Shown: in pieces, positions 35,610-64,000 of the stretch
Layout of the letters: each line of letters starts with the position of its first letter
How positions within the stretch are numbered: position 1 is the first letter of the stretch
The notes under the pieces: model-generated
The model's input: only the letters and a program-made list of their open reading frames with translations
Told to the model about the DNA's origin: nothing
The model's database searches: none
Assembly: GCA_029972225.1 (NCBI GenBank)
Contig: CP124756.1
Coordinates: forward strand, 744,001 to 808,000
Origin: Candidatus Thiothrix putei
Lineage (GTDB): Bacteria > Pseudomonadota > Gammaproteobacteria > Thiotrichales > Thiotrichaceae
Length of the DNA stretch: 64,000 nucleotides
Direction of reading: 5' to 3'
Position numbers and translations under genes: made by a program

Positions 35610-38600
35610 ATGCAGTCAGCACACCTCCCCATTGTGTTATTGCTGGGTGCAAAAAGTACCCTCAAGCCGCTTGCCTCCATACCCGCCGAACTTAGCACCC
35701 TCAAAGCCCTGTTGGAAGCGCGGCAGACGGACATTGCCCCGTTCGCCATCCAGTACGAACCGTATTTCACCCAAGAACAGCTCAAAACCACGCTTGACCA
35801 ACTTGCCGGGCGGGTTGCCATCCTGCACTTCGCCGGGCATAGCGATGGCGGGGCATTGCTGTCCGACGACAAGGCGGTCTACGCGCAACACCTTGCCACC
35901 CATATCAGCACCTGGTCACGCCCACCTGACCTGATTTTCCTCAACGGTTGCCACAATGCCGCACAGGTGGAAGGATTCCATGCGGCGGGTGTGCCGGTGG
36001 TGATTGCCACCCACCGCGCCATTGATGACGGACAGGCGGCAGGTTTTGCGCGGGAATTCTACGCGGCACTGCTGGCGGATGGCGGGCAAGTGGCGTTGCA
36101 GGCAGCCTTTACACGGGCAGGTTCCAAGGTGCTGCTGTCCGAAGCGCGGCAGGCGCGTTCGCTGGACATCGACGCCTTCAAACAGGACGGTGAACAGGCG
36201 TGGGACTGGGGCTTGTTCCCGCGCCAGCCGCAGCAAGCGGAATGGACGTTGCGCCAGTTGCTGACCCAGGAACGCCCGCGTTTCGATGCCAACGGCGTGC
36301 TGCTCAACCCCTGCCGGGGGCTGGAAGCGTTCCGCGAGGAAGACCGGGCGTATTTCTTCGGGCGCGAAGCCCTAACCGGCGAACTGTGCGAGAAAATCCC
36401 CGCCACCCGCCTGTTTGCGTTGTGGGGGGCAAGCGGTAGCGGCAAATCCTCGCTGGTCAGTGCGGGGGTGATCCCGCGTTTGCGCGAAACCGGCGACTGG
36501 CTGATCCTCAAGACCCGCCCCGGCAATGCACCGTTCGGCGAACTCGCCAGCCTGTTTGCCGCCATCCTCCACCCCGACCCGCAACAGGCGGTGGAACGGC
36601 TGCAACGGCGCAAGGCACTGGAAAGCGCGTTTCGTGAACAGCAACTCAGCCTGGCAGAATTGCTGCAAGCCGTGTGGGGCAGCAGCGGGCAGGCGCGGGC
36701 GCTGCTGTGCATTGACCAGTTTGAGGAACTGTTCACCCATTCCGACCCCGCCACCGTGCGGGCGTATGAAAGCCAGTTGATCCGGCTGGTGGAAGCCGAC
36801 CTCAAGGGTTGCACCCTGCTGTTGGTGATGCGGGCGGATTTCCTCGCCGCCGCGCTGGCAAACGAAGCCTTCACCCGCCTGCTCAACCAGCACAGCACCG
36901 AACTGCTGCCACCGATGGGGTCAGCGGAACTGCGTGCCGCCATCGAACAGCCCGCCCGTAAGCAGCGCGTCAGCGTCGAGCCAGCCCTGACCGAAGCCCT
37001 GCTGGATGCGGTCGAAAACCAGCCCGGCAGTTTGCCGCTGCTGCAATACGTCCTCAGCCTGCTGTGGGAACAGCGCGACGGCGACGGCCTGCGGCTCGAC
37101 ACTTACAACCAGTTCGGCGGGCTGGAAAAGGCACTCGAAATCCGCGCCAACAGCATCCTCGCCGGATTCTCTGACCCCGAACAGGAACAAGCCAAGCACA
37201 TCTTCCTGCGCCTGATCCAGCCCGGCGAAGGCAGCGAAGACACCCGCCGCCGTGCCGACCTGCGCGAATTCGGCGACGACCCCGCCGCCCGCCACATTAT
37301 CCAGGCACTGGCAGACGCCCGCCTGATCACCACCCAGCAAACCGACGGCAACGAAGCTGCCTTCGCCGAAGTCTCGCACGAAGCCCTGATCCGCCACTGG
37401 GGCAAACTGCGCGAGTGGATTGCTGACAACCGCGATGCGCTGCGCACCCAGCACCAGATCAGCAAAGGCGCGAAGGATTGGGAGGATGGTGGGCGTGATG
37501 CTGCGTGGTTGCTGACAGGCTCGCGGTTGGCGGTGGCGCAGGAGTGGTTGAAAGGGAATGCAGGGCGGGCGTCAGTGCTGGAGGCGGAATTCATCGAAGC
37601 TAGCATCCATGAGCGGGATCGGTTGAAGGAGGAAAAGGAACAACAACGCCAACGCGAACTGGCCTTGCAGGAAGAAAAGCGGGTGTTGGCTGAGCAGAAG
37701 GCTGAGGAACAGCGCAAATCATTGAAGAAAACTCGGCGATTGTCGTGGGTGATGGCGATGATTGCGCTGGTGATGGTTGTGGCGGCAGGGTTTGCCTGGC
37801 ATTTTGCCAATGAATCCCAAATGGCAACACAAAAGGCAGAAGCATCAGCGGAAGAATCCAGACAGCGCGAATTAGAGGCCAACTACAACTTGAGCAAGGT
37901 GTTTGAGGAAAAGGCATTGTCACTCATCCCGGACAAGGTGATCAGCGGTGAAGAACTTGCCCATCCACTGCAAATACGTACTGCTTGGTTGTATGGGCTG
38001 GATGCTGCCGCACAGAAAGTGCCGGAGGGCAAGGAGGCAGTATTGCCAACCACTTTGGGGCGATTGAGTGCCATCCGCGAACAGGATTTGTCAAGCGAAC
38101 GCAAACAAATTCGTGAGTCCACTATCGGCAGCATTCGTGCAGTAGCATATAGCCCAGATGGTGAGGTTATCGCTATCGGTTCGGATGACAACATAGTGCG
38201 GTTGTGGGATGCGAAGACAGGTGAGATGCTAGATAGACTGATTGGTCACGGTGCGGGTATATTTGCATTAGTGTTTAGTCCAGATGGCAAAGTAATCGCT
38301 ACCGGTTCAGGTGATAATACAGTGAAGCTGTGGGATGTATACAGCGGTAATCTCCTGAAAACGCTACAAGCTCATACCAACTGGGTACGTTCAGTCGCAT
38401 ATAGCCCGGATGGCAAGGTAATTGCCTCCAGTTCTGATGACAACACCGTTCGACTATGGAACACGCACAACTTTACACTCCTGAAAACCTTACAAGGTCA
38501 TACAGAATCTGTTTGGTCGGTTGTGTTCAGCCCCGATGGTAAAGTAATCGCCACAGGTTCGACTGATAACACGGTTTGTCTGTGGGATGTGGACACGGGC

Positions 38601-40130: not shown

Positions 40131-40375
40131 ATCGCCTGATACGCAGCACCCCACACCGAACAACCCTCGGAGCCTCCCCTATGCCCGGAATCACGTGCCC
40201 GAATCAAGCAGCATCTGCCAAAGTCACGAATGCCTGTGTGACAGAGAGTAAACGTGTTGTCCGTGGTGGCCTGTGGAGCGATAGCGCCCAGAATGTACGC
40301 ACAGTCTATCGTTCGAGTGAAGAGCAGGATAAAAGTGGTAGCCACATTGGTTTCCGGCTTGCTCTGGATTTCTAA
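40127..40375 (+). pseudogene. C-terminal remnant of a formylglycine-generating-enzyme (SUMF1/FGE-sulfatase) domain
   Basis: An 82-codon frame starting at ATGA, overlapping the stop of the CHAT-nSTAND gene. The first ~38 residues match nothing. The remainder, from ESKRVVRGGLWSDSAQNVRT to GSHIGFRLALDF, has the unmistakable end of FGE-sulfatase domains (RVxRGGSW ... VRxxxRSS ... IGFRLAL). About 200 upstream residues of that domain are missing. FGE-like domains often accompany caspase, CHAT and WD40 proteins, so this is probably a deleted partner gene. Whether the short peptide is still made is open. Confidence 0.7.
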
Positions 40376-46918: not shown

Positions 46919-47566
46919 ATGCATAACGACGACAACACTTTGAAAGCGTATGAGCAGCAGTTGTTTCAGCGTTTTTGCCAGAAAGAGCGCCAAGCGGACG
47001 CAGAGATGCAGCGCACCTTCGGGCAACGCTTATGGCGCTATATTCGCCGCAGCTTGATTTTTAATGACATTGAGGCGGCGGAGAATTGCCTGCAAGATAC
47101 TTGGTTAATCTTAATTGATGAATATTGTGGAAAAGCCTTGCCGGATTCCGGCTTGTGGTCAGTGTTGCATACAGTGGCATTGCGACAGGCGCGGGATACG
47201 GTTCGCCAGCAGAATAGCCAAAAGCGTAAGCCAAGCGGTGGCTTTGTGAGTTTTGCGGCTGATCCAGATGAGACGCATGACAACGCAATTTGGTCAGCAC
47301 ACCCTGATGTGGATTTGTTGTATCAACAAAGCACACCGGAAGCTGAGTATTTAGGTGCGGAAGAGGATTTAAAAAAACAAGAGCGCTTGACGTTATTTAA
47401 ACAAGCCGTGGCGCAATTGTCTGAGAAACAGCAGCTTGCGTTACACTTAAAATATACAAAAGAGTTATCGGTCAAAGAAATTGCCGCGCTTACCGGGGAA
47501 AAGTATGAAACAGTGCGTAACCATTTACGGTTGGCAAAAGAACACTTGAAAGCGCGTTTAGGTTAA
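46919..47566 (+). CDS. RNA polymerase sigma factor, ECF-like (sigma-70 family)
   Basis: A 215-residue sigma factor. Region 2 lies at about residues 25-95 (RLWRYIRRSLIFNDIEAAENCLQDTWLILIDEY) and region 4 at about 160-210 (LFKQAVAQLSEKQQLALHLKYTKELSVKEIAALTGEKYETVRNHLRLAKEHLKARL). A spacer of ~60 residues separates them. It precedes by 31 bases a protein with one membrane helix that is probably its anti-sigma factor. The secreted TPR-CHAT gene converges on the pair. It probably directs transcription of envelope or stress genes; no target promoter could be derived. Confidence 0.85.
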   Translation: MHNDDNTLKAYEQQLFQRFCQKERQADAEMQRTFGQRLWRYIRRSLIFNDIEAAENCLQDTWLILIDEYCGKALPDSGLWSVLHTVALRQARDTVRQQNSQKRKPSGGFVSFAADPDETHDNAIWSAHPDVDLLYQQSTPEAEYLGAEEDLKKQERLTLFKQAVAQLSEKQQLALHLKYTKELSVKEIAALTGEKYETVRNHLRLAKEHLKARLG

Positions 47567-47597: not shown

Positions 47598-48203
47598 ATG
47601 CAGCATGAATCCGATGGTAGAGATGAGGACGATGATGACACTGATCCAGTCATGGAGCGTGAATTAAAGGCACTTTACCAAGCCGCATTATTGGATGAGG
47701 ATTTTCAGCAACAAGTGCATGACAATGTGCAGGCGTTAAGCGATGCAGAGCGCCAAAAACTGAGTAAACAGCCCTCCATACAGCCCTTTTTGCATGATGA
47801 GTTGATGCCAGCACCTTTACAAGCGCGGTTACGGGCGCTGCAAGCAGAGAAAAAAAAACCCTGGTGGAAAACCTTATGGTCGCCAGAGGGGTGGGTATTA
47901 TTACCATTGCCGGGTCCGGCGTTTAGTTTGCCTGCGGTATTGGTCATTGGCGGGTTATTAGGGGTGTTGCTGACCCCAACGTTGTTGACACCGCAGGTGA
48001 CACCGGAGGAATGGCAGTTGCGCAGCACGACGGCGGCAGATGATGCAACGGGTGCTTGTGAATTCAGTGAGGCGCTACGGGGTGATCCTGACACGTGGTG
48101 GGCAGCAATCCAACAGTGTGAGCAGCAGGCGCAGCAGCAAGTGCAGCGCGAAACCATGGCGTTGCAGCAACGTTACCCCAATTTTCAGCCATCCAATCCA
48201 TAA
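47598..48203 (+). CDS. Putative membrane anti-sigma factor
   Basis: A 201-residue protein with an acidic start (SDGRDEDDDDTDPVMERELK), a helical cytoplasmic region of ~90 residues, one membrane helix (about 108-130, FSLPAVLVIGGLLGVLLTP) and a periplasmic tail with two cysteines. This is the layout of anti-sigma factors, and it directly follows a sigma factor gene, but no zinc-binding ZAS motif or other family signature is visible. The last 19 bases overlap the 3' end of the convergent TPR-CHAT gene. Confidence 0.6.
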   Translation: MQHESDGRDEDDDDTDPVMERELKALYQAALLDEDFQQQVHDNVQALSDAERQKLSKQPSIQPFLHDELMPAPLQARLRALQAEKKKPWWKTLWSPEGWVLLPLPGPAFSLPAVLVIGGLLGVLLTPTLLTPQVTPEEWQLRSTTAADDATGACEFSEALRGDPDTWWAAIQQCEQQAQQQVQRETMALQQRYPNFQPSNP

Positions 48204-50614
48204 AGTTGAAATGCGCCCCAGTAAAATGGGTGGGCGTGCTCAGCATTTTTTTGCAAGGTGTGTTGCATTGCGTGCTGTAACGCGCTTGCCCAGTGGGTGG
48301 ACGTGGTTGGTAATGCGGTGAACAGTGCTTGCATCAAGGTTTGGGTGGTGGGGGAGTCAATGTCCCAAGCGGTGGCGAGCACTTGCCGCGAACCGGCACT
48401 GAAAAAAGCTTTGACCAGTGATGACATGCCTTGTGTGGTGTCACTGATACTGCCGGTGCTGCACGCAGACAACAGCACTATATCGGCATCAAGTGTTAAC
48501 GCCATAATTTCACTGGCGGTGACACGCCCGTCTTCATCCTTGGTTTTTCCCAGTTCCAGAAAGGCTTCGGTATTGTCCTGTGTGTTGTGGGGGGCTGCAT
48601 GGGTGGCAAAACTGATGATTTGAAAGGTGGTTTCTGGCTTTTGGGGATCGATTAACTGTTTCAACGCTTGTTCTGTGGCGTCTTTAGCGGTTAATACGCG
48701 GCAATCGGTGTTGGCATGGTGCGCTGTACACAGCAGTTGATGCTGATGTTCCAGCTCTGCTTTCGCCCCTGATAACGCTCTCCCCAGTGGTGCGCCGATG
48801 CCTAGAAAACGTTTGCGCGGATCCGGTGAGGGTGGTGAGGGTAATTCACGCAAGCTCTTGAGGGCATTGACAGCGGGCAGGTAGTTGAAGGTGTATTGCT
48901 GCATGAGCCAGGCGGCTTGCTGATAATCGCGTGAGGTCGGGGCTTGGGTCACCAGCAGATGCAAGGGCAGGTGTTGTAATTCGTCGTCTGTTACCACAAT
49001 CAGGTGCTGGATTTCCTGCAAATCGTCGACGACTGGGGCAAATAACGTTTGGTACAAACGGTGTGCGGTTTGCAAATCAAAATCGGGTAGCGTTGACGTT
49101 TGCGGGGTCATGGCTTGCCGCAGGCGCATGATGTCTTGCTGAAAATCAGGCGTTAACGTTAAGGCGTGTAATTTGGCAGGGCGCTGGTGGGCGGCAACGA
49201 AGACATAAGCGAGTTGTTCCTTCGTCTGCGGGTCACGCTCAAACACCCACGCCAGCAACGCCTCGCCTTTACGTAGGTTACTCAGGGTGTTATCAGGGTT
49301 TAAAGCCAGTGGTTTGGCTTGCGCCAGTTGGCGGTAAGCTGGCAAGGTTTTTTGCAGTTGCTGCTCAGCTTCATTGAGTGCTTGCTGTAAACGTTGTGAC
49401 TCGGCTGCCTGATGCGTGCTTGCTTGGTATTGCGCATTGTCTTCCAGCATTTTGTAGGTTTTCCATAAGTCACTGATGCTTTGCCGATGTTCGGGGTTTT
49501 GGATGCTTAAGCGCATCAGGGCTTGTTGTAAGCCTTGCAGCCGTTCCAGGCCGTGCAATTGCTGGATAGCCCAAAATGCAGCCGGTAAGGTGCTTGAGGT
49601 GAGTCTGCTGGTTGCTGGGTGACTGCTAAAACGCAGTTGCAAACGGGCAAAACGTTGGCGGTCTTGCAAATCGTCTTGGGCGGCAATCAGTGTGCCGTGG
49701 TTGAGCTTGGTGGTGTTGGTGTTGAGGTAAAACTGTGCGGCGTGCTCAATAGCCGTGTGTGCTTGGGCGTAGCGTTGTTGTTGCAGGTGGGTTTCTGCCA
49801 GACCAAGTTGGATGCGGGCAATGGCTTTGTCACGGTGCAGTGTGGGCGGGAACGTTTGATAACGCTGTAAACTGTCTTGGTAAGCCGGTTCCGCCTGTGA
49901 ATAGTGGTGTTGTTTGCGGTGATTCTCAGCCTGTTTGTAGCGGTTGAGGGTGTAGGCTTCGGTGTTTTGTTGCTTGGTGCTCGCCAGTAGGTTTGCTACT
50001 TGTGTTAAGTGAGCGGCTTCCTGCTGATAGTCTTCCTGTAAGCGGTAGGTATTGGCGAGATTGCTGTGTGTGATGGCGGTTTCAGCAGGGGGTTGTTGGT
50101 GTTTTAGAGCGCTTTGATAGTGGTGTTGGGCGGTGTTGATGTGGGCGGCACGCTGTAAGGGGGTATTGAGCGCTGCATAGTAATGCGCATCAGCTAGGAG
50201 CATGAGCGCTTCTGCATGGCGAGCCTCGCCACGTAGTGTTGTTTCAATCTCGGTTAGGGCGCTGATGAGGTTGTCCCACGCTTTTGGCGTTGCCCAAGGT
50301 TTTTGCCAGTCCAGTTCCAAACGTAAGCGGTTAAGTTTAGCAATGGCAATAGTCGGGTCGTGTGGGGCTAAGTGTTGTTGGGCGCTTGCCAGACTGCGGT
50401 CAAAGGCTTGTTTGGCTCGGTCGTAATCGAGTAAGCATTGGTCGTAATAGCGTCCGAGTGCCGATTGGTGGTTCATATCGTCTGGTTGAGCGGGTGGCGG
50501 CGGCGGTTGACTGCAATCCAAATCACTGGCGTATGACACGCTATTTGTGCTGACAATACTCAACAGTAAGCTGATGATGAATGGCATCCAAGCACGGGCT
50601 ATTGGCAACATCAC
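48185..50614 (-). CDS. Secreted TPR - CHAT domain protein
   Basis: An 809-residue protein with a signal peptide (MMLPIARAWMPFIISLLLSI, then SYAS). Several TPR-like helical pairs follow (about residues 130-400, for instance EALMLLADAHYYAALNTPL and AEPAYQDSLQRYQ). The C-terminal CHAT domain (about 520-809) has its catalytic His in ISFATHAAP and Cys in IVLLSACSTG, followed by the usual SLVKAFFSAGSRQVLATAW and PFYWGAFQLYG. It is thus an extracytoplasmic caspase-like protease of the TPR-CHAT kind. It converges on, and overlaps by 19 bases, the putative anti-sigma gene. Confidence 0.88.
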   Translation of the reverse strand: MMLPIARAWMPFIISLLLSIVSTNSVSYASDLDCSQPPPPPAQPDDMNHQSALGRYYDQCLLDYDRAKQAFDRSLASAQQHLAPHDPTIAIAKLNRLRLELDWQKPWATPKAWDNLISALTEIETTLRGEARHAEALMLLADAHYYAALNTPLQRAAHINTAQHHYQSALKHQQPPAETAITHSNLANTYRLQEDYQQEAAHLTQVANLLASTKQQNTEAYTLNRYKQAENHRKQHHYSQAEPAYQDSLQRYQTFPPTLHRDKAIARIQLGLAETHLQQQRYAQAHTAIEHAAQFYLNTNTTKLNHGTLIAAQDDLQDRQRFARLQLRFSSHPATSRLTSSTLPAAFWAIQQLHGLERLQGLQQALMRLSIQNPEHRQSISDLWKTYKMLEDNAQYQASTHQAAESQRLQQALNEAEQQLQKTLPAYRQLAQAKPLALNPDNTLSNLRKGEALLAWVFERDPQTKEQLAYVFVAAHQRPAKLHALTLTPDFQQDIMRLRQAMTPQTSTLPDFDLQTAHRLYQTLFAPVVDDLQEIQHLIVVTDDELQHLPLHLLVTQAPTSRDYQQAAWLMQQYTFNYLPAVNALKSLRELPSPPSPDPRKRFLGIGAPLGRALSGAKAELEHQHQLLCTAHHANTDCRVLTAKDATEQALKQLIDPQKPETTFQIISFATHAAPHNTQDNTEAFLELGKTKDEDGRVTASEIMALTLDADIVLLSACSTGSISDTTQGMSSLVKAFFSAGSRQVLATAWDIDSPTTQTLMQALFTALPTTSTHWASALQHAMQHTLQKNAEHAHPFYWGAFQLYGLDG

Positions 50615-50762: not shown

Positions 50763-50828
50763 ATGAAAAAACTAGACCCTATCGAATATTTATTAAGTGG
50801 GATATTGTTACTATTTGTTTTGTTGTAA
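50763..50828 (+). pseudogene. Tiny hydrophobic membrane peptide gene with an IS66-family insertion at its 3' end
   Basis: A 21-codon frame (MKKLDPIEYLLSGILLLFVL and a final L) with a strong ribosome-binding site, AAGGAG, 7 bases before the ATG. The stop codon comes from the left inverted repeat of the IS element. Joining the two flanks without the element gives almost the same peptide, ending LLK and then TAA, so the gene may stay functional. It is a single membrane helix, as in CydX-like or regulatory micro-proteins. It is too short to be judged by homology. Confidence 0.45.
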
Positions 50829-52288
50829 CTACTCAGTCTATCCAAAAACCGCTCTGAGAGACTCAAACGGATTTCGCCCCTGAATCTTGTCGGTTTCCCA
50901 CACGGAACGGATAACACAAAAAGCCTCCGCACCGCCCATTGCGCGGAATCCACCCGCCACCTTGAGTTTAACTTTGACGGGTCGAACGGCTCGTTCAGCC
51001 AGATTGTTGTCAAACGGTACATCAAACCGCTGAATGAACTGCAACACCGAATCCTTGAAGTCACGTAGACGGCATAACAAGTTTCTGGCGGGGTCTTGTT
51101 TGGCTTTGCCTTGTTTAGGGTTGATTTTAGGTTGTTCAGGGAAAATCAACAGTCCGTGATTCACCCATTGGTCATAACGTTGCTTGAGTTCAGTCATTTG
51201 CTCCAGCGACAATGCCGTTTGTTGCGCGTCTTTTGCTTCAGCCACTGCGGTCTTAGCATCAATCAAGACCTGTTTGAGTTGTGCAGGCCATTGATGTTTG
51301 AGGGTTTCATCAAAGTAGTTCAACTCCCGCAGCAGATGCGCCCCACAAAGGCTGTGTACCACCTGATCAAAGCGGAAATACGGTTTCCAATGGTCATGAA
51401 CCGCAACGCCTTGGAATACCGGCAGGATTCCCGCCGCTGTCATGGCCTCGTATCCGCGCCGTGCATGGGCAGTGTAGTAAACGGCTTCGGGTGTTGCGGC
51501 TACATGCAACCATTGGGTTTTGCCTTGCGCCCGCATTCCGCTTTCATCAAAGTGAGCCACGTCGCTGCTACTAATGGTGTTCTGAATAGCTGTATAAGTG
51601 GCCGTCAGGTTTTCACTCGCCTGACCGATCCAGTGCTGCACACTGCCATCGGAAGGCTTAACACCGTATTGGTCGAATACAATCTCGCTTGCCCGTGACA
51701 GCGAAATGAAATGACCTTGTACCAAACCCACCGTATAGGCCTTTAAACGTGCGCCGTAACTGATGTAAGGGGCGAGTGTTGCCGGGAATTCGCCTTTATG
51801 AACCTTGCCACAACCACACGTGCAAATCAGTTGGCGGTGTTCCGTGACCACGATTTGGGGTTCGGGAATGTCCCACTGTTGCCGACATTCACCTGTCTCA
51901 ATCAGGGCTTCGGTTAGCGGCAAACCACAGTCGCAATGCCCGGCAACACCGTAATATTCCACGTGATCGGGTGATGGGTGCATCACGAGGCTATGCCCTT
52001 TATGACCTGGCTGGCCACCTTTTGGGCGTTGTCCAAGCTGACGCGGCTGTGCGGGTTGGCGTTTCAGTCCATCCGATGACGGGGGCTTGTGTGAATTTTT
52101 ACTGTTTTTGTTGAGCTGTGCTTCCAGCTCATTCACGCGGGCGGTCAACTGATCAATACGGTCAAACAGCGTCAACACTAACTCCACCAATTCGGCGTGG
52201 CTTAACTGCTGGAGACTTTCTCGTGTTGGGCGGGGTAGCTGGTTCATATCGATAGTGTAGCTGATTTTTTAGGAGACTGAGTAGTTAC
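50825..52288 (-). mobile_element. IS66-family insertion sequence (transposase only)
   Basis: A 1464-base element bounded by perfect 15-base terminal inverted repeats, GTAACTACTCAGTCT at 50825-50839 and its complement at 52274-52288. It carries only the large transposase, without the small tnpA/tnpB genes of classical IS66, as in the ISBst12 subgroup. The 8 bases on the left (GTTTTGTT) and right (AAAATAAT) do not match, so no 8-bp target duplication is seen. Confidence 0.85.
50838..52247 (-). CDS. IS66-family transposase
   Basis: A 469-residue, apparently intact transposase. It has an N-terminal coiled coil (ELVELVLTLFDRIDQLTARV), the linker NSKNSHKPPSSDG and a zinc-finger region (HCDCGLPL and CTCGCGKVHKG). 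The DDE catalytic domain has Asp in AHFDESG, Asp in VAVHDHWKPY and Glu in NNLAERAVRP. The C-terminal GGFRAMGGAEAFCVIRSV is typical of the family. The ATG lies 41 bases inside the right inverted repeat. The element may be active. Confidence 0.93.
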   Translation of the reverse strand: MNQLPRPTRESLQQLSHAELVELVLTLFDRIDQLTARVNELEAQLNKNSKNSHKPPSSDGLKRQPAQPRQLGQRPKGGQPGHKGHSLVMHPSPDHVEYYGVAGHCDCGLPLTEALIETGECRQQWDIPEPQIVVTEHRQLICTCGCGKVHKGEFPATLAPYISYGARLKAYTVGLVQGHFISLSRASEIVFDQYGVKPSDGSVQHWIGQASENLTATYTAIQNTISSSDVAHFDESGMRAQGKTQWLHVAATPEAVYYTAHARRGYEAMTAAGILPVFQGVAVHDHWKPYFRFDQVVHSLCGAHLLRELNYFDETLKHQWPAQLKQVLIDAKTAVAEAKDAQQTALSLEQMTELKQRYDQWVNHGLLIFPEQPKINPKQGKAKQDPARNLLCRLRDFKDSVLQFIQRFDVPFDNNLAERAVRPVKVKLKVAGGFRAMGGAEAFCVIRSVWETDKIQGRNPFESLRAVFG

Positions 52289-54946: not shown

Positions 54947-54982
54947 AACCACTCTATGTGCATAAGATTACATAGAGTGGTT
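54947..54982 (+). promoter_or_regulatory. 13-bp stem-loop between the lipoprotein and oxoprolinase genes
   Basis: Perfect arms AACCACTCTATGT/ACATAGAGTGGTT enclose a 10-base loop. No T-run follows (TGTCTCC), so it is not a standard terminator. It could be a leader structure of the oxoprolinase mRNA, an RNA-stabilising hairpin or a DNA operator. Confidence 0.6.
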
Positions 54983-55037
54983 GTCTCCATGTAATATCGA
55001 CGTTTCACCAACGTTTTGTATTTCTAGGAATAGCCCC

Positions 55038-58000
55038 ATGATCAGCGCAGAAAAAAAGCCAGCACAATGGGAATTCTGGGTAGACCGTGGCGGTACATTC
55101 ACCGACATCGTAGCCCGCACCCCTGACGGTCAATTCAAAACCCATAAAATCCTCTCGGAAAACCCCGGGCGTTACCGCGATGCAGCGGTGCAAGGTATCC
55201 GCGAACTGTTGGGCTTGCAACGCGGCGAACCCTTGCCCCCGCATACCATCAAAGCGGTGAAAATGGGGACAACCGTTGCCACCAATGCCTTGCTGGAACG
55301 CAAGGGCGAACCCACGCTGCTGCTGATTACCCAAGATTTTGCTGATTTGTTGCGCATTGGCTACCAGAACCGCCCGCGCATTTTCGACCTGCACATTGTG
55401 TTACCCGAATTGCTTTATCGCACGGTTGCGGAAGTGCCGGAGCGTTTATCCGCCACGGGGGAAACCCTGCTACCCTTAGATGAAACCGCCACGCTGCACG
55501 CCTTGCAACAGGCTTATGACGCAGGTTTGCGGGCGGTGGCGATTGCGCTGATGCACGGCTACCAATTTCCACAGCACGAACAGCGTGTCGCAGCGTTGGC
55601 ACAACAGGTGGGTTTCACGCAAATTTCGGTCAGCCACCGCGTTAGCCCCTTGATCAAGCTGGTGGCGCGTGCTGATACCACGGTGGTTGATGCTTATTTG
55701 TCGCCGATTCTGCGCCGTTACGTCGAACAGGTGCGCGAAGAATTGGGGGAAGCGCAAGCTGCCACCAGATTAATGTTCATGCAATCCAACGGTGGTTTGA
55801 CGGATGCGGCTTTGTTTCAGGGCAAGGATGCCATCCTGTCGGGGCCTGCGGGCGGTGTGGTGGGGATGGTGCGTACTGCGCAGGCGGCCGGTTTCGACAA
55901 GCTGATTGGCTTTGATATGGGCGGCACGTCGACCGATGTGTGCCATTTCGCAGGGACGTTCGAGCGTGCATTGGAAACCGAAGTCGCGGGCGTGCGGATG
56001 CGCGTGCCGATGATGAGCATTCACACCGTGGCGGCGGGAGGCGGTTCTATCCTCGCGTTTGAGAACGGGCGTTTCCGCGTGGGGCCGGAAAGTGCGGGGG
56101 CGAATCCGGGGCCTGCCTGTTACCGGCGAGGTGGCCCGTTGACCGTGACCGACTGCAATGTGTTACTGGGCAAGATTCAGCCGGAACATTTCCCGCAAGT
56201 CTTCGGTGTGAACGCGGATCAGCCGCTGGATGTGATCATTGTGCGTGAAAAGTTTGTGCAACTGGCACAACAGATTGCCACAGAAACCGGCGATTCGCTG
56301 CGTACCCCCGAAGCCTTGGCGGAAGGTTTCCTGCGCATTGCGGTGGAAAACATGGCGAATGCCATCAAGAAAATTTCGGTGCAACGCGGTTACGACGTGA
56401 CCCAATACACCCTCAATTGCTTCGGCGGTGCGGGTGGGCAGCACGCCTGCTTGGTGGCAGATGCCTTGGGAATGCAGCGGATTTTTATCCACCCGTTTGC
56501 CGGGGTGCTGTCAGCGTTCGGGATGGGGTTGGCGGATATTCGGGCTTTGCGTGAACGGCAATTCGGCAAGCCACTCACGGCAACAGGCGAAGCACACGCC
56601 GTGTTAGCTGAACTGGAAGCCGACACCCTGCACGAGGTACAACAGCAGGGAATTGCCCGCGAGCAGATCCGGCTGGAACGCTGGGCGCATATCCGTTATC
56701 AGGGTTCGGATCAAACCTTCCCCGTCGCGTTTGATGCGCCGCAACAGATGACAACAGCCTTTGAAGCCGCCCATCAGGTACGTTACGGTTTTGTGCCGGA
56801 AGGGGGCGTATTGGTAATGGAATGGCTGGCGTCGGAAGCAATCGGGGAAACCCATGCCTATGTAAGCTCTTATCCCCCTCCTTTGCAAAAGGAGGGGTTA
56901 GGGGAGGATTTTCTTCTGGGCCCCGCCATTATCCATGACCCCAACAGCACCATCGTGGTGGAAGCCGGTTGGCAAGCGCAAACCGATGCTTTTGGCAATC
57001 GCCTGCTTACCCGCATTGCCCCGCTTCAGCGCCAAGAGGCAGTGGGAACCCGTGCTGATCCCGTCATGCTGGAAGTGTTCAATAACCTGTTCATGTCGAT
57101 TGCCGAACAAATGGGCGCAACACTGGCGAATACCGCGCATTCGGTCAATATCAAGGAACGGCTGGACTTTTCTTGCGCCATTTTCGCCCCCGATGGTGGG
57201 CTGGTGGCGAATGCGCCGCATGTACCGGTGCATCTGGGGTCGATGGGGGAAAGTGTGCGTACCATTCTGCGCCTCAATGCCGGGGCAATGGCAGCGGGTG
57301 ATGTGTTCATGATCAATAACCCCTACAACGGTGGCACTCACTTGCCGGATGTGACGGTCATTACCCCGGTATTCGATGATGCTGACAAACTGATTTTCCT
57401 GGTGGCATCACGCGGGCATCATGCCGATATTGGTGGCAAAACCCCCGGTTCAACCCCGCCGGATAGCCGCCACATCAGCGAAGAAGGCATCGTGATCGAC
57501 AATTTCAAGCTGGTGGAGCGCGGTATATTCCGTGAGCAAGCCACCCGCGAATTGCTGCTGTCGCCGCCGTACCCGTGCCGTAATATTGAACAGAATCTGG
57601 CAGATTTAGCCGCGCAAATTGCCGCCAATGCCACAGGCGTCAAGGAATTACGCCACATGGTCGGGCAATTCGGCTTGGAGGTAGTGCAGGCGTATATGGC
57701 ACACGTCCAAGACAATGCGGAGGAAAGTGTGCGTCGGGTGATTGAGGTGTTGACGGATGCAGCTTATGTCCACCGCCTGGATAATGGTGCGGAAATTCAG
57801 GTGGCTATCCGTGTCGATGCTACTCAACGCAGTGTCACGGTCGATTTCAGCGGTACATCTGCGCAGGATGCAGGCAATTACAATGCGCCCTTGGCGGTGT
57901 GCCGTTCTGTGGTGCTATACGTCTTCCGCACGTTGGTGGGGGCGGATATTCCGCTGAATGAAGGGTGCATGAAACCCATTCACCTGATTGTGCCGGAAGC

Positions 58001-58598
58001 TTCCATGCTCAACCCGCGTTACCCCGCAGCGGTGATTGCAGGCAATACCGAAGTCAGTCAAGCGGTTGCTGAAGCTTTGTACGGGGCGCTTGGGGTCTTG
58101 GCAGGTTCGCAAGGCACAATGAACAATGTCGTCTACGGCAACGAACGTTACCAAAATTACGAAACCATTTGCGGCGGGGCGGGTGCGGGTTATGTGCACG
58201 GTAAAGGCTTTGAGGGGGCGAGTGCGGTGCAAACCCACATGACCAATACCCGCATGACTGACCCGGAAGTGCTGGAAACCCGTTTTCCGGTAAGGGTGGA
58301 ACGGTTCAGCATTCGCCTAGGCTCCGGTGGGCAGGGGCGTTGGCGCGGCGGTGAAGGGGTGGAGCGTCACCTGCGGTTTTTGGAGGCAATGACCGCGACG
58401 GTGATTTCCTCCAGCCGGATTCATGCGCCGCGTGGGCTAAACGGTGGGCAGCCGGGGCAGTGTGGGCGTAATGCGGTTATCCGTGCGGATGGCACAGTAC
58501 AAGCATTGCGCGGCAATGATGCTTGCGAGATGCAGGCGGGTGATGTGTTGGTGATGCAAACACCGGGTGGCGGTGGAGCCTTTATGCATAAAGAGTAA
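55038..58598 (+). CDS. ATP-dependent 5-oxoprolinase / fused hydantoinase A-B
   Basis: A 1186-residue fusion of HyuA (about 1-680) and HyuB (about 690-1180) domains that hydrolyses 5-oxo-L-proline to glutamate with ATP. HyuA motifs: [61 protein letters not shown]. HyuB motifs: [46 protein letters not shown], and the final GGGGAF. The ATG at 55038 is chosen over 54981. Odd: [14 protein letters not shown] (about residue 612-625) is encoded by the same palindromic repeat family found in the permease gene at 18.5 kb. It sits in the junction between the A and B parts, where an insertion may be tolerated. Confidence 0.88.
56872..56911. repeat. In-frame palindromic repeat inside the 5-oxoprolinase gene
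   Basis: ATCCCCCTCCTTTGCAAAAG is followed by GAGGGGTTAGGGGAGGATTT, a single unit of the family at 18462-18570. The frame stays open and codes for [13 protein letters not shown]. Confidence 0.8.
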
Positions 58599-58661
58599 CC
58601 CCATTTTTAGGGGCGTAACGTATGTGTGGATAGCGTAGACGTTGATCAAGGAGTGTGTCAC

Positions 58662-59216
58662 ATGAGTCAAGAACCGAATAAAACGGTTGCCATGAAAAAA
58701 CCACTGGATACCGGATTTCTCAAGAAAAATAATCCGAGTCCAGAACCCCCCACACCACAAACAGCAGCCCCTGCCACCGCGATTTATACCGGCAGTAACC
58801 CCACTGCGGAGGCGGCAGGTACAACTGAAAAACATTTCATGCATGACCCCGTGGTCGGCTGGGTCGTGGTGATCGACGGGCCGGGGCAGGGGATTTCCTT
58901 GCCACTGGGCAACGGCAATAACAGTTTAGGGCGCGGCAGCAACCAGCGGGTGGCGCTGGACTTTGGGGATGCCAATTTGTCCCGTGATAGCCACGCCACC
59001 ATTACTTATGATCCGCGTGGGCGCAAGTTCTACCTGCATAGCGGGGGCAACAGCACCAATCTGACGTATCTGGAAGGCGCAGGCACGACGATTCCGGTGT
59101 TAGCACCGGTTGTGTTGGAAAATGGGCAACACCTGCGTTTAGGCAATACCACCCTTAAGTTCGTTGCTTTGTGTGGGGATGGGTTCGGTTGGGATGCGGC
59201 TGATGCTGGGGCGTAA
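58662..59216 (+). CDS. FHA-domain protein, first gene of the phospho-signalling operon
   Basis: A 184-residue cytoplasmic protein. The N-terminal ~60 residues are Pro/Thr-rich and could be a kinase substrate region (NKTVAMKKPLDTGFLKKN). The C-terminal FHA domain (about 70-175) binds phosphothreonine: GNNSLGRGSNQRVALDF, the conserved ANLSRDSHATITY, and ENGQHLRLGNTTLKF. The ATG at 58662 is preceded by AAGGAG. The end overlaps the PP2C start region by about 14 bases. Confidence 0.87.
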   Translation: MSQEPNKTVAMKKPLDTGFLKKNNPSPEPPTPQTAAPATAIYTGSNPTAEAAGTTEKHFMHDPVVGWVVVIDGPGQGISLPLGNGNNSLGRGSNQRVALDFGDANLSRDSHATITYDPRGRKFYLHSGGNSTNLTYLEGAGTTIPVLAPVVLENGQHLRLGNTTLKFVALCGDGFGWDAADAGA

Positions 59217-60456
59217 CGGTGATTTTGACATCGGTTATGCCACGGATGTCGGCAGCCGGGGCAATCAGGAAGATAACCTCGGTTTCCGCCAATACGAGGA
59301 CGGTTCTGTCCTTGCGGTCTTGGCGGATGGCATGGGCGGTCATACCGGCGGGGAGGTAGCCAGTGAGATGGCGATACAGTGGTTTGGGGAATATTTTCCG
59401 CAAACTCACGGCAGTATCCGGGCGCGTTTGGAGCAAACCTTGCGCCAGACCCAACAGCGGCTGTGTTTGTATGCACAGGAGCATCCCGAATTGCAGGACA
59501 TGGGTTCTACCTTGGTGGCGGTGTTTGTGCAAGGGCAAGACCTGTATTGGCTCAGTGTGGGGGATTCCCTGTTGTATCGGGCAGATGACACCGGGATTGT
59601 CAAACTCAATGCCACCCACACGGTGGCGGAGCGTTTCCGGCGCTTATGGGAAAGCGGCAAAATTTCCCGTGCGGAACTGGACAATGTACAGGAACCCCAC
59701 GCCTTAACCAGTGCGCTGGGGCCGGATAAGTTACAGGAAATCGACTGTCAGCAGGCGACCTTGCCAACGGATGCGGTGCTGGTACTTGCCAGCGATGGTT
59801 TGTTGAGCCTCAATCCGGTTGACATCAATACTTTGCTGGATAAGCAAGCGTCTGCCCAGATATTGGCAGAGCGTTTGTTAATGGCAACCTTAGCCAAACG
59901 TCAGCAGGGGCAGGACAATATCAGCTTGATTGTGCTCAAACATCCGGTGCTTCCCGTTACCCAGCATCGCCGCCGTTGGCCGCTGATATTGGGAGCAACG
60001 CTGTTGTTAGGTGCGGCGACGGGGATGTTCTACCAATGGCATCAGGCCGAACAGCGGATTGCGCAAGAACGTCAGGAACGCCAAGAGGCTGAACAGCGTG
60101 CTGATAAGCAGCGTCAGGCATTAGCGGAAGAAAAACGCCAGCGTATGCAGGCTGAGCAGGAAGCCGCAGCCTCCAGAACGCTGGCGGAAAAGGCAGCCAG
60201 GCGTGCTGATGAAGCCGAGCAGCAACGTAAAGCCGCTAAAAAACGTGCGGAAAAAGCGGAGCATGATAAAAAACGCGCAGAAGCGGCTGCCAACGCCCAG
60301 GCAGTCCCTGTAGCCCCAGCGGTTCCAGCCGCCCCCGTAAAAAATCCGCCACCACCGAGTGCGCCAGCACCCGTGCCTACCCCTAAACCGCGACCACCGC
60401 CTGCTGAACCTGTGCAGGAGTTGGATAAGCGCGATATTTTTCCAGATGCATCTTGA
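59203..60456 (+). CDS. PP2C-type Ser/Thr protein phosphatase with membrane helix and coiled-coil tail
   Basis: A 417-residue phosphatase that removes phosphates placed by the linked kinase. Metal-binding motifs are GSRGNQEDNLG, ADGMGGHTGGEVAS, LASDGLLSL and GQDNISLIVL. After the ~250-residue catalytic domain comes a membrane helix (about 267-284, WPLILGATLLLGAATGM), a long basic/acidic coiled coil (about 290-365) and a Pro-rich C-terminus. ATG 59203 is used; ATG 59194 is an alternative. It overlaps the FHA gene, so coupling is expected. Confidence 0.88.
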   Translation: MLGRNGDFDIGYATDVGSRGNQEDNLGFRQYEDGSVLAVLADGMGGHTGGEVASEMAIQWFGEYFPQTHGSIRARLEQTLRQTQQRLCLYAQEHPELQDMGSTLVAVFVQGQDLYWLSVGDSLLYRADDTGIVKLNATHTVAERFRRLWESGKISRAELDNVQEPHALTSALGPDKLQEIDCQQATLPTDAVLVLASDGLLSLNPVDINTLLDKQASAQILAERLLMATLAKRQQGQDNISLIVLKHPVLPVTQHRRRWPLILGATLLLGAATGMFYQWHQAEQRIAQERQERQEAEQRADKQRQALAEEKRQRMQAEQEAAASRTLAEKAARRADEAEQQRKAAKKRAEKAEHDKKRAEAAANAQAVPVAPAVPAAPVKNPPPPSAPAPVPTPKPRPPPAEPVQELDKRDIFPDAS

Positions 60457-60474
60457 CCGGGAGTGTTAATAACC

Positions 60475-61836
60475 ATGTTAAATCACCTTTTGAAATACAT
60501 CCTATTGCTGCCTTTCCTTGTGGTGTTGGCAGTGCCATGGGTAGAGACGGCGGAAGGCGCGGGACGCCCTGATGCGGTGCAACAAGCTCGCAATAGCGTT
60601 GTAAAAATCCATGTGGAAACCGTTGATAAAAAGAATCGCATTTCTTTTGGGCATGGTAGCGGTTTTGTGATTGCCCCGAATAAGGTGATTACCAATGCAC
60701 ACGTTGCCAACCCAGAACTGTTTTTCCCTGAGGTGAAAAGCTCCAGTGTGTTGATTATTGACGGTGGGGTTTCCGGGGGGAAACTTAAAAAAATCAATGA
60801 TGTTGAAATTTTAGCAGACCGCGACCTCGCCATTCTGACAGTGGATTCGCTCAGTGATCGCCCTGCATTACCGTTAGCAGAACCGGTGGATGGGGAGGTT
60901 ATTTATTCCATGGGCTTTCCCGGTGTGGGGGAGATTTGGGATGTGAATAAAATCTTGGAGGAAGAAGCCGCAGGCAAGATGACGAAGGAAAAGTTGGAAG
61001 CTGTCGAGAAGCAAATGAGTGATCCTTCTGTAAAGAATGGGAGCATCAGTCGGATGGTGGAAGATCCTGATTGGAGCGTAAAACTGGGTTTGCCCAGTTC
61101 GATTACGCCGGTCAGTGTTGTTCAGCACAGTGCGGACATAGAAAAAGGCAACAGTGGTGGGCCGGTGGTTAATAGCTGCGGTGCGGTGGTGGGGATCAAT
61201 TCTCAAGCGAAAGAAACCAACTATGCTGCGGTTAATGTGACAGAGTTAATGGCATTTTTAAAAACTAAGAATGTCGCTTTCCAGACACAAGGCGCTTGTG
61301 ATGAGCAAACCGGTGTTGCCACCCCGACGGAAGCAGAAGGGAAACAGGCGGATGCTTCAGAGGGGATACCGATGTGGTGGTTAGTCGGTGGTGGTTTGGT
61401 GTTGGCTGCACTGGTGGGTTTTGGCATCTTACTGTTTAGCCAGCCGCGTTCTGCTTCATCGCGTTCAGCGCATAAGGCGCCGCCGCCCAATCCGTCGGTT
61501 AACAATAAACTGATCAGCAGCACCGCACCCGTCGAGAGTGGTTACTGTTTGCAGGGCTTGCAAGGCTTGGGGCATTTGCGTTTTCCCCTGACAGGAACGC
61601 ATGTGCAGTTGGGGTATGACGAGGAGCTTAATGATTGCGCCATCCCTGAACGCACGGTATCCCGCCAGCACGCCAGCTTGCACCACAAGGATGGTCAGTG
61701 GCAGCTTATCCCGCTGCGTACCCTCAACCCCACGACCCTTAATAGCGAAGTACTGGAACCTAACGACATCCGCATTCTAACGGAAGGCGATGTGTTGACG
61801 TTAGGCGAAGCCAGCTTTGTGTTCAGTAAAGGCTAA
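60475..61836 (+). CDS. Trypsin-like serine protease with membrane helix and C-terminal FHA domain
   Basis: A 453-residue protein. A signal/anchor segment (LLKYILLLPFLVVLAVPWV) leads to a DegP-like protease domain with the triad His76 (VITNAHVANP), Asp117 (ADRDLAILTV) and Ser227 (KGNSGGPVVNSCG). A membrane helix follows at about residues 300-325 (WWLVGGGLVLAALVGFGILL), then a cytoplasmic FHA domain (about 355-453) with ERTVSRQHASLHHKDGQW and EGDVLTLGEASFVF. The protein thus connects periplasmic proteolysis with phosphothreonine binding inside. ATG 60475 is preferred over GTG 60463. It is the third gene of the four-gene operon. Confidence 0.85.
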   Translation: MLNHLLKYILLLPFLVVLAVPWVETAEGAGRPDAVQQARNSVVKIHVETVDKKNRISFGHGSGFVIAPNKVITNAHVANPELFFPEVKSSSVLIIDGGVSGGKLKKINDVEILADRDLAILTVDSLSDRPALPLAEPVDGEVIYSMGFPGVGEIWDVNKILEEEAAGKMTKEKLEAVEKQMSDPSVKNGSISRMVEDPDWSVKLGLPSSITPVSVVQHSADIEKGNSGGPVVNSCGAVVGINSQAKETNYAAVNVTELMAFLKTKNVAFQTQGACDEQTGVATPTEAEGKQADASEGIPMWWLVGGGLVLAALVGFGILLFSQPRSASSRSAHKAPPPNPSVNNKLISSTAPVESGYCLQGLQGLGHLRFPLTGTHVQLGYDEELNDCAIPERTVSRQHASLHHKDGQWQLIPLRTLNPTTLNSEVLEPNDIRILTEGDVLTLGEASFVFSKG

Positions 61837-61846
61837 GGAGCACGCC

Positions 61847-63289
61847 ATGCCACACCAAGAACACCGTCAAGCCCTGCCAGCCGGGACACAGCTTCGGGAA
61901 TACGACATCCTGCGCACCTTGGGCAGCGGTGGTTTCGGTGTGGCGTATTTGGCGTATGACCGGGAATTAGCCCACCATGTGGTGTTAAAAGAATACCTGC
62001 CCGGTGCATTTGCTACCCGCCTTGCCGGTAACACCGTGGTACCGACCTCCCCCAAAGACGAAGGGAATTTTCAGTGGGGGTTGGAACGTTTCCTGAGTGA
62101 AGCGCGGGCATTGGCAGCGTTTCGTGCGCATCCGCATATTGTGTCGGTGTTGCATTCGTTCCGGGCGAACAATACGGCTTACATGGTGATGGAATACGCG
62201 GGTGAATTCAGCCTGCAACAGTTTCTTGACGGGCAGGGCGTCATGACACAGGAGCAGTTGCTGGATTTGGTATTGCCGCTGTTGGATGCACTGGAAACCA
62301 TCCATGCCGCCGGGTTGATCCACCGGGATATTAAGCCGGATAACATTTTGATCAATGACAATGCCGAACCTGTGCTGATCGACTTCGGGGCGGCGCGTCA
62401 GGCGGTCGGGGAACGCAGCATGAGCCTGAGCATTATTTTGACGCCTGGTTATGCCCCGTTTGAGCAATACCACCATGCGACGGAACAAGGCCCATGGACA
62501 GATATTTACGCATTGGCAGCGGTGATGTTTCGTTGTGTGACGGGTAAAAACCCGCCTGATGCTCCGGCACGGATGGAAACCGAAACCCCACTGGAACTGG
62601 AACCGGGGGAGGGGTATTCCCCGCATCTGCTGGCAGCAATCGCTTGGGGCTTGCAAATCCGTGCGGCTGAGCGCCCGCAAACGGTTGCCGAATGGCGGGA
62701 GGCGTTGCTGAATGAGCCAGTGGTGGTGGATGCAGCCACGACAACAGGGGGTGGCAAAATGCGCGGTGGGTTACTGGCGGGTAAGCGTCGGGTTGCTACC
62801 TCCCTGTTGGGTGGGGTTTTGCTGTTGGGGCTGACCTTGTTGGGCATTGCAGCGCTGTCCTCTGATCAAGCGAGTCAATCGAGTGAGCTTGCGGTTAAAC
62901 CGGCGAGTGTTCCGAGCGTGCCAACGCCGGTGGCTGCACTGGCAGCGCCTGTACCCGTTCCTGAGGCCGATGCTTCGACGCCAAGCGCTCCAGAAGAAGC
63001 AAAAACCGATGTGGAATCACCTCCGGCAACCCCGCCTGAGCCTGCCAAACCGGCAACTGATGGCAAGAAAGACAAGGATACTGATAAAAGCAAGGGCAAA
63101 GATAAAAGCAAAACGGGTTCAGGTAAGACACAACCCAGTGGCAAATCACCTAAAACGCCAAAGACACCCTCGACAACAAAAACAGTGCCGATTTATGTCA
63201 TGCCCTCGCAACCCCGCAACACGTCTAAACCTTCTGGGAAGTCTACTGACTCGCGAGATTGTTTAGTCAACCCAAATTGCCACCCATGA
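61847..63289 (+). CDS. Membrane Ser/Thr protein kinase (eukaryotic-like)
   Basis: A 480-residue Hanks-type kinase. Seen: GSGGFGVAYLAYD (nucleotide loop), Lys in VVLKEYLPG, Glu in helix C, HRDIKPDNILIND (catalytic loop), DFGAARQAVGERSMSLS (metal loop and activation segment), TPGYAPFEQY and WTDIYALAAVMF. The EYLPG signature is typical of kinases linked to FHA/PP2C clusters. A membrane helix lies at about 310-330, and the C-terminal ~150 residues are Pro-, Lys- and Ser-rich, ending with two cysteines (DCLVNPNCHP). The ribosome-binding site AAGGAG precedes ATG 61847. It is the last gene of the operon. Confidence 0.92.
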   Translation: MPHQEHRQALPAGTQLREYDILRTLGSGGFGVAYLAYDRELAHHVVLKEYLPGAFATRLAGNTVVPTSPKDEGNFQWGLERFLSEARALAAFRAHPHIVSVLHSFRANNTAYMVMEYAGEFSLQQFLDGQGVMTQEQLLDLVLPLLDALETIHAAGLIHRDIKPDNILINDNAEPVLIDFGAARQAVGERSMSLSIILTPGYAPFEQYHHATEQGPWTDIYALAAVMFRCVTGKNPPDAPARMETETPLELEPGEGYSPHLLAAIAWGLQIRAAERPQTVAEWREALLNEPVVVDAATTTGGGKMRGGLLAGKRRVATSLLGGVLLLGLTLLGIAALSSDQASQSSELAVKPASVPSVPTPVAALAAPVPVPEADASTPSAPEEAKTDVESPPATPPEPAKPATDGKKDKDTDKSKGKDKSKTGSGKTQPSGKSPKTPKTPSTTKTVPIYVMPSQPRNTSKPSGKSTDSRDCLVNPNCHP

Positions 63290-63343
63290 GGAATCTCTCA
63301 ATTACTACCTGTCTTTTCCTATAGGCATTTTTGGGGCAGCGCC

Positions 63344-63997
63344 TTATAAATACTCGTGGATGTTCATCATTCCAAGGATATACAGCAGTTCATTTGTTGT
63401 GATGTTACCGAATTCTTGGCGAATATTGACCAATACCTTTTCCGCGTACCGTGGTGTAATGCCCCACGTATGCGGAATGCTTTTCATGGGTTTGAACGTC
63501 AGCACGTGTCGCAGTACCATTTTTTGCGTATCATTCAGGCCGTCCAACAAGGGGGCAATAAAGAATCGCAAAGACTCTTTTGAATGAAATACCCCGTGGT
63601 GATAGTCGCCGGAAAGCGCAAATAATTGAGTAAGGTGCATTTTTTTCAATTTCTGAAAGTGGTTGGCACTGATATTTTTGCTGATGACGGAAATGCCAGC
63701 GATGGCAAACGTGCCGCGCTGTGCAGGGATTGAAAGACCATACTGGATACCGAAGCTGTTGCGTGCTTCTTCGGTTACTGCCCGTTCCTCACGACTTACC
63801 CGACCCGCGTTAATTTCCCCCCACCAATCAATCGGTTTGCGCCAGTCTTGCAATGCCAGACGCAACACAAAATCACGGTTGCCGTAGTTGTTCTTAATAT
63901 AGTGGGCAACAAACGGGGCAAAGCTTGCGGAATAGTGCAGCACGGGTTGCGCATCCTTACTCAAGTACATCGGCTTGGGGTAGAAAGAGTACAACAC
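63344..63997 (-). CDS. LuxR-family regulator with autoinducer-binding-like domain (5' end outside window)
   Basis: At least 217 residues; the frame reaches the window edge with only a GTG at 63997, so the true start is probably outside. The N-terminal part looks like an acyl-homoserine-lactone-type ligand domain (DWRKPIDWWGEINAGRVSREE and FGIQYGLSIPAQRGTFAIAGIS). The C-terminal part, LNDTQKMVLRHVLTFKPMKS, followed by WGITPRYAEKVLVNIRQEFG and NITTNELLYIL, resembles a divergent LuxR helix-turn-helix. No luxI-type synthase gene is in the window. It converges on the kinase operon. Confidence 0.65.
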   Translation of the reverse strand: MLYSFYPKPMYLSKDAQPVLHYSASFAPFVAHYIKNNYGNRDFVLRLALQDWRKPIDWWGEINAGRVSREERAVTEEARNSFGIQYGLSIPAQRGTFAIAGISVISKNISANHFQKLKKMHLTQLFALSGDYHHGVFHSKESLRFFIAPLLDGLNDTQKMVLRHVLTFKPMKSIPHTWGITPRYAEKVLVNIRQEFGNITTNELLYILGMMNIHEYL

Positions 63998-64000
63998 CCC

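Follow-up and report, generated by a model that had tools for sequence, protein, structure and literature searches.

A putative threonine-phosphorylation operon with a membrane protease in Candidatus Thiothrix putei, apparently independent of type VI secretion

A four-gene operon and its products

We analyzed a stretch of 64,000 nucleotides from Candidatus Thiothrix putei (assembly GCA_029972225.1, contig CP124756.1; here the window, G000:C1:744001-808000), whose genome is a single contig of 4,277,058 bases. At 58662-63289, on the plus strand, lie four genes encoding, in order, a stand-alone FHA protein (labeled FHA1), a PP2C phosphatase, a trypsin-like protease with a transmembrane (TM) segment and an FHA domain, and a Hanks-type kinase with a TM segment and a tail (Table 1). 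G numbers denote the genomes compared, G000 being the source genome, and L numbers denote loci. The Pfam matches of these four genes were all over their cut-offs. The protease gene begins 6 bases after the PP2C gene and the kinase gene 10 bases after the protease gene, and the PP2C and FHA1 genes overlap if PP2C starts at the first TTG; the most likely kinase start, 61847, agrees with relatives. With domain matches on all four genes, a single strand and tight spacing, the operon proposed in the original prediction is real, and the identical gene order in three more Thiothrix genomes rules out a chance grouping. Scans of 58400-63700 gave five promoter-like sites (shuffle mean 3.3) and 12 terminator-like sites (shuffle mean 6.5), which were not used as evidence.

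Table 1. Features of the operon, its divergent segments and related loci (window positions unless a contig is named)
Feature	Position	Strand	Basis
Stand-alone FHA protein (FHA1), likely phosphothreonine reader	58662..59216	+	Pfam FHA 29 bits; start agrees with relatives
PP2C phosphatase, probable TM, Ala/Glu/Arg/Lys-rich then Pro-rich tail; exact start uncertain	59164..60456	+	Pfam PP2C_2 65 bits
Membrane protease: signal peptide, periplasmic trypsin domain, TM, cytoplasmic FHA	60463..61836	+	Pfam (Trypsin_2 74 bits), alignments, hydropathy, model
Protease FHA domain, Tyr replacing the phosphothreonine-site Arg	61627..61806	+	Pfam residues 389-448, 44 bits; alignments
Hanks-type Ser/Thr kinase, TM residues 319-337, Pro/Ala/Lys-rich tail	61847..63289	+	Pkinase 122 bits; hydropathy
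Island 1: protease residues 21-299, mature periplasmic part	60523..61359	+	dS 1.19, dN 0.13 against T. caldifontis
Island 2: kinase residues 288-447, juxtamembrane, TM, most of tail	62710..63187	+	dS 0.88 (288-345), 0.42 (346-447)
ECF-type sigma factor	46919..47566	+	Sigma70_r4_2 43 bits
Single-TM partner of sigma factor, possible anti-sigma	47598..48203	+	One TM; no Pfam match
CHAT (caspase-like) protein, convergent and overlapping with partner	48185..50614	-	Pfam CHAT 160 bits
Type VI secretion remnant (L003): VipA, VipB, Hcp, ImpE, TssE, TssF, ImpA_N gene nearby	G000:C1 ~4,259,763-4,270,741

TM segments and signal peptides were called by a hydropathy scan, and the catalytic residues of the protease, kinase and PP2C families were taken from general family knowledge. 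The protease has a signal peptide and a TM segment at residues 307-325, an arrangement that would place the trypsin domain, like the kinase tail, in the periplasm and the FHA and kinase domains in the cytoplasm. Its residues H80, D121 and S231 and two cysteines are conserved in the alignments, in which one row (L051) begins at a contig end, without the His part. A structure model of the protease (mean predicted local distance difference test score, pLDDT, 73.5) was good in the trypsin part and fair in the FHA part; the best PDB matches of the trypsin part were Rv3671c (MarP), Deg2, DegP and DegS, with VIA Z values of ~22-23 against the last three over an alignment spanning the trypsin part only. 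The proposed membrane protease with an FHA domain across the membrane was therefore borne out as an HtrA-like enzyme with a conserved triad and its FHA domain opposite the trypsin side. It shares with HtrA/DegS and MarP a periplasmic trypsin-like fold, an HDS triad and a membrane anchor, but differs from both in having a TM segment after, and not only before, the trypsin domain. Unlike HtrA/DegS, it has no PDZ domain in a Pfam scan at E 0.01 and carries a cytoplasmic FHA domain instead, and it scores 63 bits against a NCBIfam MarP cut-off of 250.

The K, E, HRD and DFG residues of the kinase and the DGMGGH, SDG and DN residues of PP2C are kept across their alignments. Membrane helices had been predicted for both proteins; the kinase helix was confirmed, whereas the PP2C helix fell below threshold in the window and above it in the G054 ortholog. 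Low-complexity tails are present in both, as proposed, rich in Pro, Ala and Lys in the kinase and in Ala, Glu, Arg and Lys, then Pro, in PP2C.

The FHA1 proteins share a recognizable pattern in a 16-row alignment, although a search of solved structures with this alignment gave only a weak FHA match. FHA1 of the window has both the Arg and the Ser of the phosphothreonine site (LGR and LSR..H), and the Arg is present in 15 of the 16 rows. In the protease FHA domain the Ser is kept and the Arg is replaced, by Tyr in the window and in Thiothrix caldifontis and by Ser in G056; G054 and four relatives outside Thiothrix retain it. According to passages of a study of Agrobacterium Fha (PMC3953482), R30 is the phosphothreonine-binding arginine, single R30 or S46 mutants reduce secretion, and the double mutant abolishes it.

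These residues suggest that, in this lineage, FHA1 may be the phosphothreonine reader and the protease FHA domain a docking element. The original prediction had threonine phosphorylation controlling periplasmic proteolysis outside type VI secretion. Its protease topology and its independence from that system (below) find support; direct phosphothreonine control of the protease stays conjectural, the site Arg being gone in three of the four Thiothrix copies. Phosphorylation may plausibly control periplasmic proteolysis, but the opposite direction, with the protease acting on the kinase tail, fits the evidence nearly as well.

Distribution of the gene set

The neighborhood survey suggested in the original prediction showed that the set recurs in four of 16 Thiothrix genomes: Near full-length protease relatives were found in these four, each inside the four genes in the same order, with broken PP2C and kinase frames in the G056 draft. 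The closest named genome found was T. caldifontis DSM 21228, the sole match in a scan of genome contigs. An order-level survey matched 42 of 63 genomes, although only four rows span most of the protease and the rest are partial. At class level, the protease alignment (E 1e-20) found four of 369 genomes, source genome included, a count that may be low, as full scoring was limited to four candidates per genome. The FHA1 alignment (E 1e-15) found at least 10 of 369, again with the source genome; FHA counts are lower bounds, since the search of the source genome itself gave four places without the FHA1 gene. At phylum level a 10-row protease alignment was too broad, matching 118 of 398 genomes mostly through the trypsin part, and two long matches (G561 and G782) were used from it. 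BLAST with the query set found no FHA1, PP2C or kinase in the G692, G651, G666, G559 and G772 stretches, and a plasmid search with the protease returned 52 records, none covering 80% of it.

Outside Thiothrix, all components occur together in G097, G782 and the Azospirillum lipoferum 4B plasmid AZO_p4. The G097 locus has extra genes (FHA, MotA/ExbB, FHA1, PP2C, a pair of trypsin-FHA genes, a TM gene weakly matching VWA, and a kinase); G782 has a kinase, another gene, a protease-FHA gene, FHA1 and PP2C; and AZO_p4 has FHA, FHA1, a pair of PP2C genes, trypsin-FHA and two kinase genes, the first of them fused to FHA. Other loci carry subsets: ExbB, FHA1, PP2C, a TM gene and protease in G151; FHA1, PP2C and a protease without a visible FHA domain in G171 and G288; FHA, FHA1, two PP2C and protease in G561; and kinase, FHA1 and PP2C, with no protease, in G130. 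G260 has two such loci, one with FHA1, PP2C, a PP2C-trypsin-FHA frame plus a kinase and the other with a kinase and PP2C. Components lie on separate contigs in G094 and G331, and G417 has FHA alone, on a short contig. The set recurs in at least two classes, apparently apart from type VI secretion, and adds to the familiar components a protease whose catalytic domain lies across the membrane from its FHA domain.

Several related arrangements were observed along the way. The AZO_p4 FHA-kinase fusion (L122:12769-14472) is annotated as a DUF805 protein and adjoins the trypsin-FHA gene. Three Roseobacter plasmid loci (L123, L124 and L125, from Ruegeria and Leisingera) have kinase, FHA and PP2C genes near two or three dynamin-family genes and substrate-binding proteins. 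In other Gammaproteobacteria (L050:6494-12446, L066, L071 and L065), FHA1, PP2C and protease genes are accompanied by a MotA/ExbB-type gene and by a short TM protein whose conserved start reads INIFSMSALDLFASA; such MotA/ExbB-associated loci are possibly a proton-channel version of the module.

Separation from type VI secretion

The best-known role of FHA/PP2C/kinase sets in Gram-negative bacteria is control of the type VI secretion system (T6SS). Like the T6SS threonine phosphorylation pathway (PpkA, PppA, Fha), the Thiothrix set clusters an FHA protein, a PP2C and a transmembrane Hanks kinase; it differs in having no adjacent T6SS genes and in adding a membrane protease. FHA1 also differs from T6SS-type FHA proteins, scoring 19 bits against a VI_FHA cut-off of 120, with no T6SS_FHA_C in the Pfam scan. 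The original prediction had reported no T6SS genes beside the set and named a T6SS cluster immediately outside the window as the observation that would speak against it. On the right flank there is none: No T6SS gene was present among the 11 proteins scanned, and tblastn with 12 T6SS proteins found none in the window and the 16 kb to its right. Ten of the flanking proteins include an autoinducer-binding LuxR type, SCO1, DUF2189, UbiA, SURF1 and cytochrome oxidase subunits, followed by an IS66 transposase. The same 12 queries against the window and 23 partly overlapping loci (E 1e-5) gave nothing but matches of the T6SS kinase query, to kinase genes and to one L111 stretch without a called gene.

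The source genome does have T6SS genes elsewhere (Table 1), with VipB at 4,266,417; on a circular chromosome this would be ~0.8 Mb away from the operon. Judged by TssG and TssM, this system looks broken: TssG lies in two pieces around a UPF0236 transposase gene, and IcmF_C (TssM) had no match anywhere in the genome. VipB is present in two of 16 Thiothrix genomes, G000 and G056, both carrying the set. The G056 cluster, ~0.65 Mb from its four-gene set, comprises TagF, IcmF-type genes, DotU, TssK, ClpV, a T6SS_FHA_C protein, a kinase and a VWA protein, some with broken frames. Of 14 further genomes in which the set or its FHA1 occurs, five have VipB (of the 14, G151 and G561 are 76% and 74% complete), and in G130 and G260 the T6SS comes with Fha, TagF and PP2C of its own. 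The window kinase scored 123-373 bits against module kinases outside T. caldifontis versus 55 bits against the T6SS kinase fragment of G056, whose broken frame depresses the score.

The four-gene set therefore looks independent of the T6SS, given that only five of the 14 other carriers have VipB and that G056 has a T6SS with its own kinase far from the set. A displaced regulator acting in trans through the PpkA/PppA/Fha pathway would account for both VipB-bearing Thiothrix genomes carrying the set and for the T6SS genes elsewhere in the source genome. We consider it extremely improbable: VipB is absent from two of four Thiothrix carriers and nine of the 14 others, the system of the source genome appears defective, and the T6SS of G056, G130 and G260 have regulators of their own. 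Carriers without VipB and the separate T6SS kinase weaken both control in trans and a displaced module.

Among the matches listed in open-licence PubMed Central literature, no description of such a set outside the T6SS was found. The genome's other PP2C/kinase locus is a row of vWA, PP2C and kinase genes (L052:7686-10412; G000 ~374-376 kb). It has the vWA-PP2C-kinase triad that we take to be the one named TerY-P type, and shares with our set the PP2C and kinase pair; it differs in that no FHA or protease was seen there, and its kinase had no BLAST match to the window kinase at E 1e-3. Overall, the module varies the known FHA/PP2C/kinase theme by including an HtrA-like membrane protease and is apparently independent of the T6SS.

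Two divergent segments and a possible mechanism

Compared with T. caldifontis in 100-base bins, the operon is 91-100% identical outside two runs, one in the protease (63-86%) and one in the kinase (54-81%). Across the alignable region (29,233-65,745), 19 of 309 bins fall below 88% identity, of which nine form a single run at 60,501-61,400, four lie within 62,701-63,200 and six are scattered singly. The two islands are not the sole differences between the genomes, as three stretches do not align at all (34,118-35,509, 50,825-52,288, and 37,642-40,328, the last with both flanks aligned); two of these hold transposase-like genes and one holds the WD40 part of a CHAT-NTPase-like gene.

The first island covers the mature periplasmic part of the protease (Table 1). 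On either side, residues 1-20 and 300-330 have zero substitutions, and synonymous divergence (dS) is 0.046 in the linker and FHA domain. The second island covers the kinase juxtamembrane region, TM and most of the tail, between a kinase domain with dS of 0.045 and a last stretch of 33 residues identical to T. caldifontis. FHA1 (dS 0.07) and PP2C (dS 0.05) resemble the background, and the PP2C tail is unchanged. The ten- to twenty-fold jump in dS and its sharp borders are most readily accounted for, we infer, if a diverged allele replaced the original one, and the ratio of nonsynonymous divergence (dN) to dS near 0.1 in the first island indicates a functional, constrained protease. Since both islands fall on the outward-facing portions of two proteins encoded in one operon (in the kinase also on the juxtamembrane region and TM), and the PP2C tail shows no change, they suggest that the protease and kinase exteriors may be matched to each other or to one signal. 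They would point to contact between protease domain and kinase tail with no knowledge of the substrate needed.

Taking together the gene set, catalytic residues, topology signals, recurrence, lack of T6SS genes at the examined loci and the two islands, we tentatively favor, at slightly short of an even chance, a T6SS-independent threonine-phosphorylation module of the inner membrane whose protease and kinase tail are paired in the periplasm. In the mechanism that we infer, with its phosphorylated targets, its complex, its protease-tail pairing and its direction of signaling, the Hanks kinase and PP2C would set the phosphorylation of cytoplasmic threonines, which the stand-alone FHA protein would read. 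The HtrA-like protease, tethered by its TM segment and cytoplasmic FHA domain, would be recruited into or gated by the complex. On the periplasmic side, the protease domain would form a matched pair with the kinase tail, the protease docking on or trimming the tail, or both sensing one signal. Such coupling of phosphorylation to periplasmic proteolysis within one complex, if real, would be a new route for information across the inner membrane.

Several observations weigh against this module. The protease is missing at the G130 locus and a nearby kinase at G151, G171 and G288; three of four Thiothrix protease FHA domains have no phosphothreonine-site Arg; and the source genome and five other carriers do possess VipB. 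The islands come from one genome pair, with indels and low complexity in the kinase tail, and the kinase comparison is affected by the broken G056 frame.

The co-divergence of the protease domain and kinase tail, in which the PP2C tail takes no part, also fits a sensor working from the outside in. Here the protease would be the input, cutting the kinase tail on envelope stress or ligand and so switching the kinase, the FHA domains would hold the complex, and the output would be cytoplasmic phosphorylation. The degenerate phosphothreonine site of the protease FHA domain and a fold near DegS and MarP agree with such a sensor, which is possible but on balance unlikely: No cleavage site was identified, and the FHA domain is kept in all four Thiothrix copies, pointing to cytoplasmic control too. 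A bolder idea, and a rather doubtful one, is that the protease domain and the kinase juxtamembrane-TM-tail segment form a coevolving recognition pair, a receptor kinase with a dedicated partner protease, whose specificity segments would be swapped by recombination while the cytoplasmic machinery is fixed; such a pair would perhaps serve neighbor recognition or a strain-specific ligand.

The upstream sigma factor and CHAT block

Upstream of the operon are genes for an extracytoplasmic function (ECF) sigma factor, a single-TM partner and a CHAT protein (Table 1), as well as those for an IS66-like transposase and two secreted proteins, one trypsin-like and one unknown. The sigma, partner and CHAT genes lie near the four-gene set in all four Thiothrix carriers. 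The partner is present in six of 16 Thiothrix genomes, and G055 and G061 possess the block but lack the four genes, which makes its link to the set one of place; functional coupling between the two is only possible.

This neighborhood raises a DegS/RseA-like arrangement, in which the protease would cut the sigma partner and phosphorylation would gate the cut. Besides the Thiothrix co-occurrence, it draws on G331, where FHA, ExbB and FHA1 come directly after an ECF sigma factor and a different TM protein. We regard it as improbable, however, given the block alone in G055 and G061 and the lack of an adjacent sigma gene in the other carriers examined (e.g., G097 and G151); the partner model is poor (mean pLDDT 62, predicted template modeling score 0.27) and so says nothing on an anti-sigma fold. 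ECF43 sigma/kinase pairs, EcfP/PknT and EcfK/PknS in passages of PMC8999054, likewise have an ECF sigma gene near a transmembrane Ser/Thr kinase. The Thiothrix sigma factor differs from them in having a TM partner, in lying ~14 kb from the kinase gene, and in retaining much of the acidic region 2.2 motif (DAED, lost in ECF43): The place of the motif reads AAEN, partly acidic, in the window and AEE, AED or AQD in relatives.

The CHAT gene and second trypsin-like gene nearby, together with generic kinase hits to known defence systems (e.g., mad6), also bring to mind a defence or programmed-death switch, with kinase, trypsin and CHAT proteins as a proteolytic cascade; peptidase cascades have been proposed for multicellular bacteria in passages of PMC7159879. 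A search for known anti-phage systems with PADLOC gave only generic kinase, PP2C, protease and CHAT matches, with nothing specific for FHA1 or the sigma partner, and the block is syntenic in Thiothrix, making this switch very improbable.

Three other genes of the window were noted. A 5-oxoprolinase-type gene at 54981-58598 is shared with T. caldifontis and has no match in L040 or L041. At 63344-64000, convergent with the operon, a LuxR-type gene with an autoinducer-binding domain runs beyond the window end. At 35610-40130, a large protein begins like a CHAT protein and also contains an NTPase and WD40 repeats, domains judged by eye.

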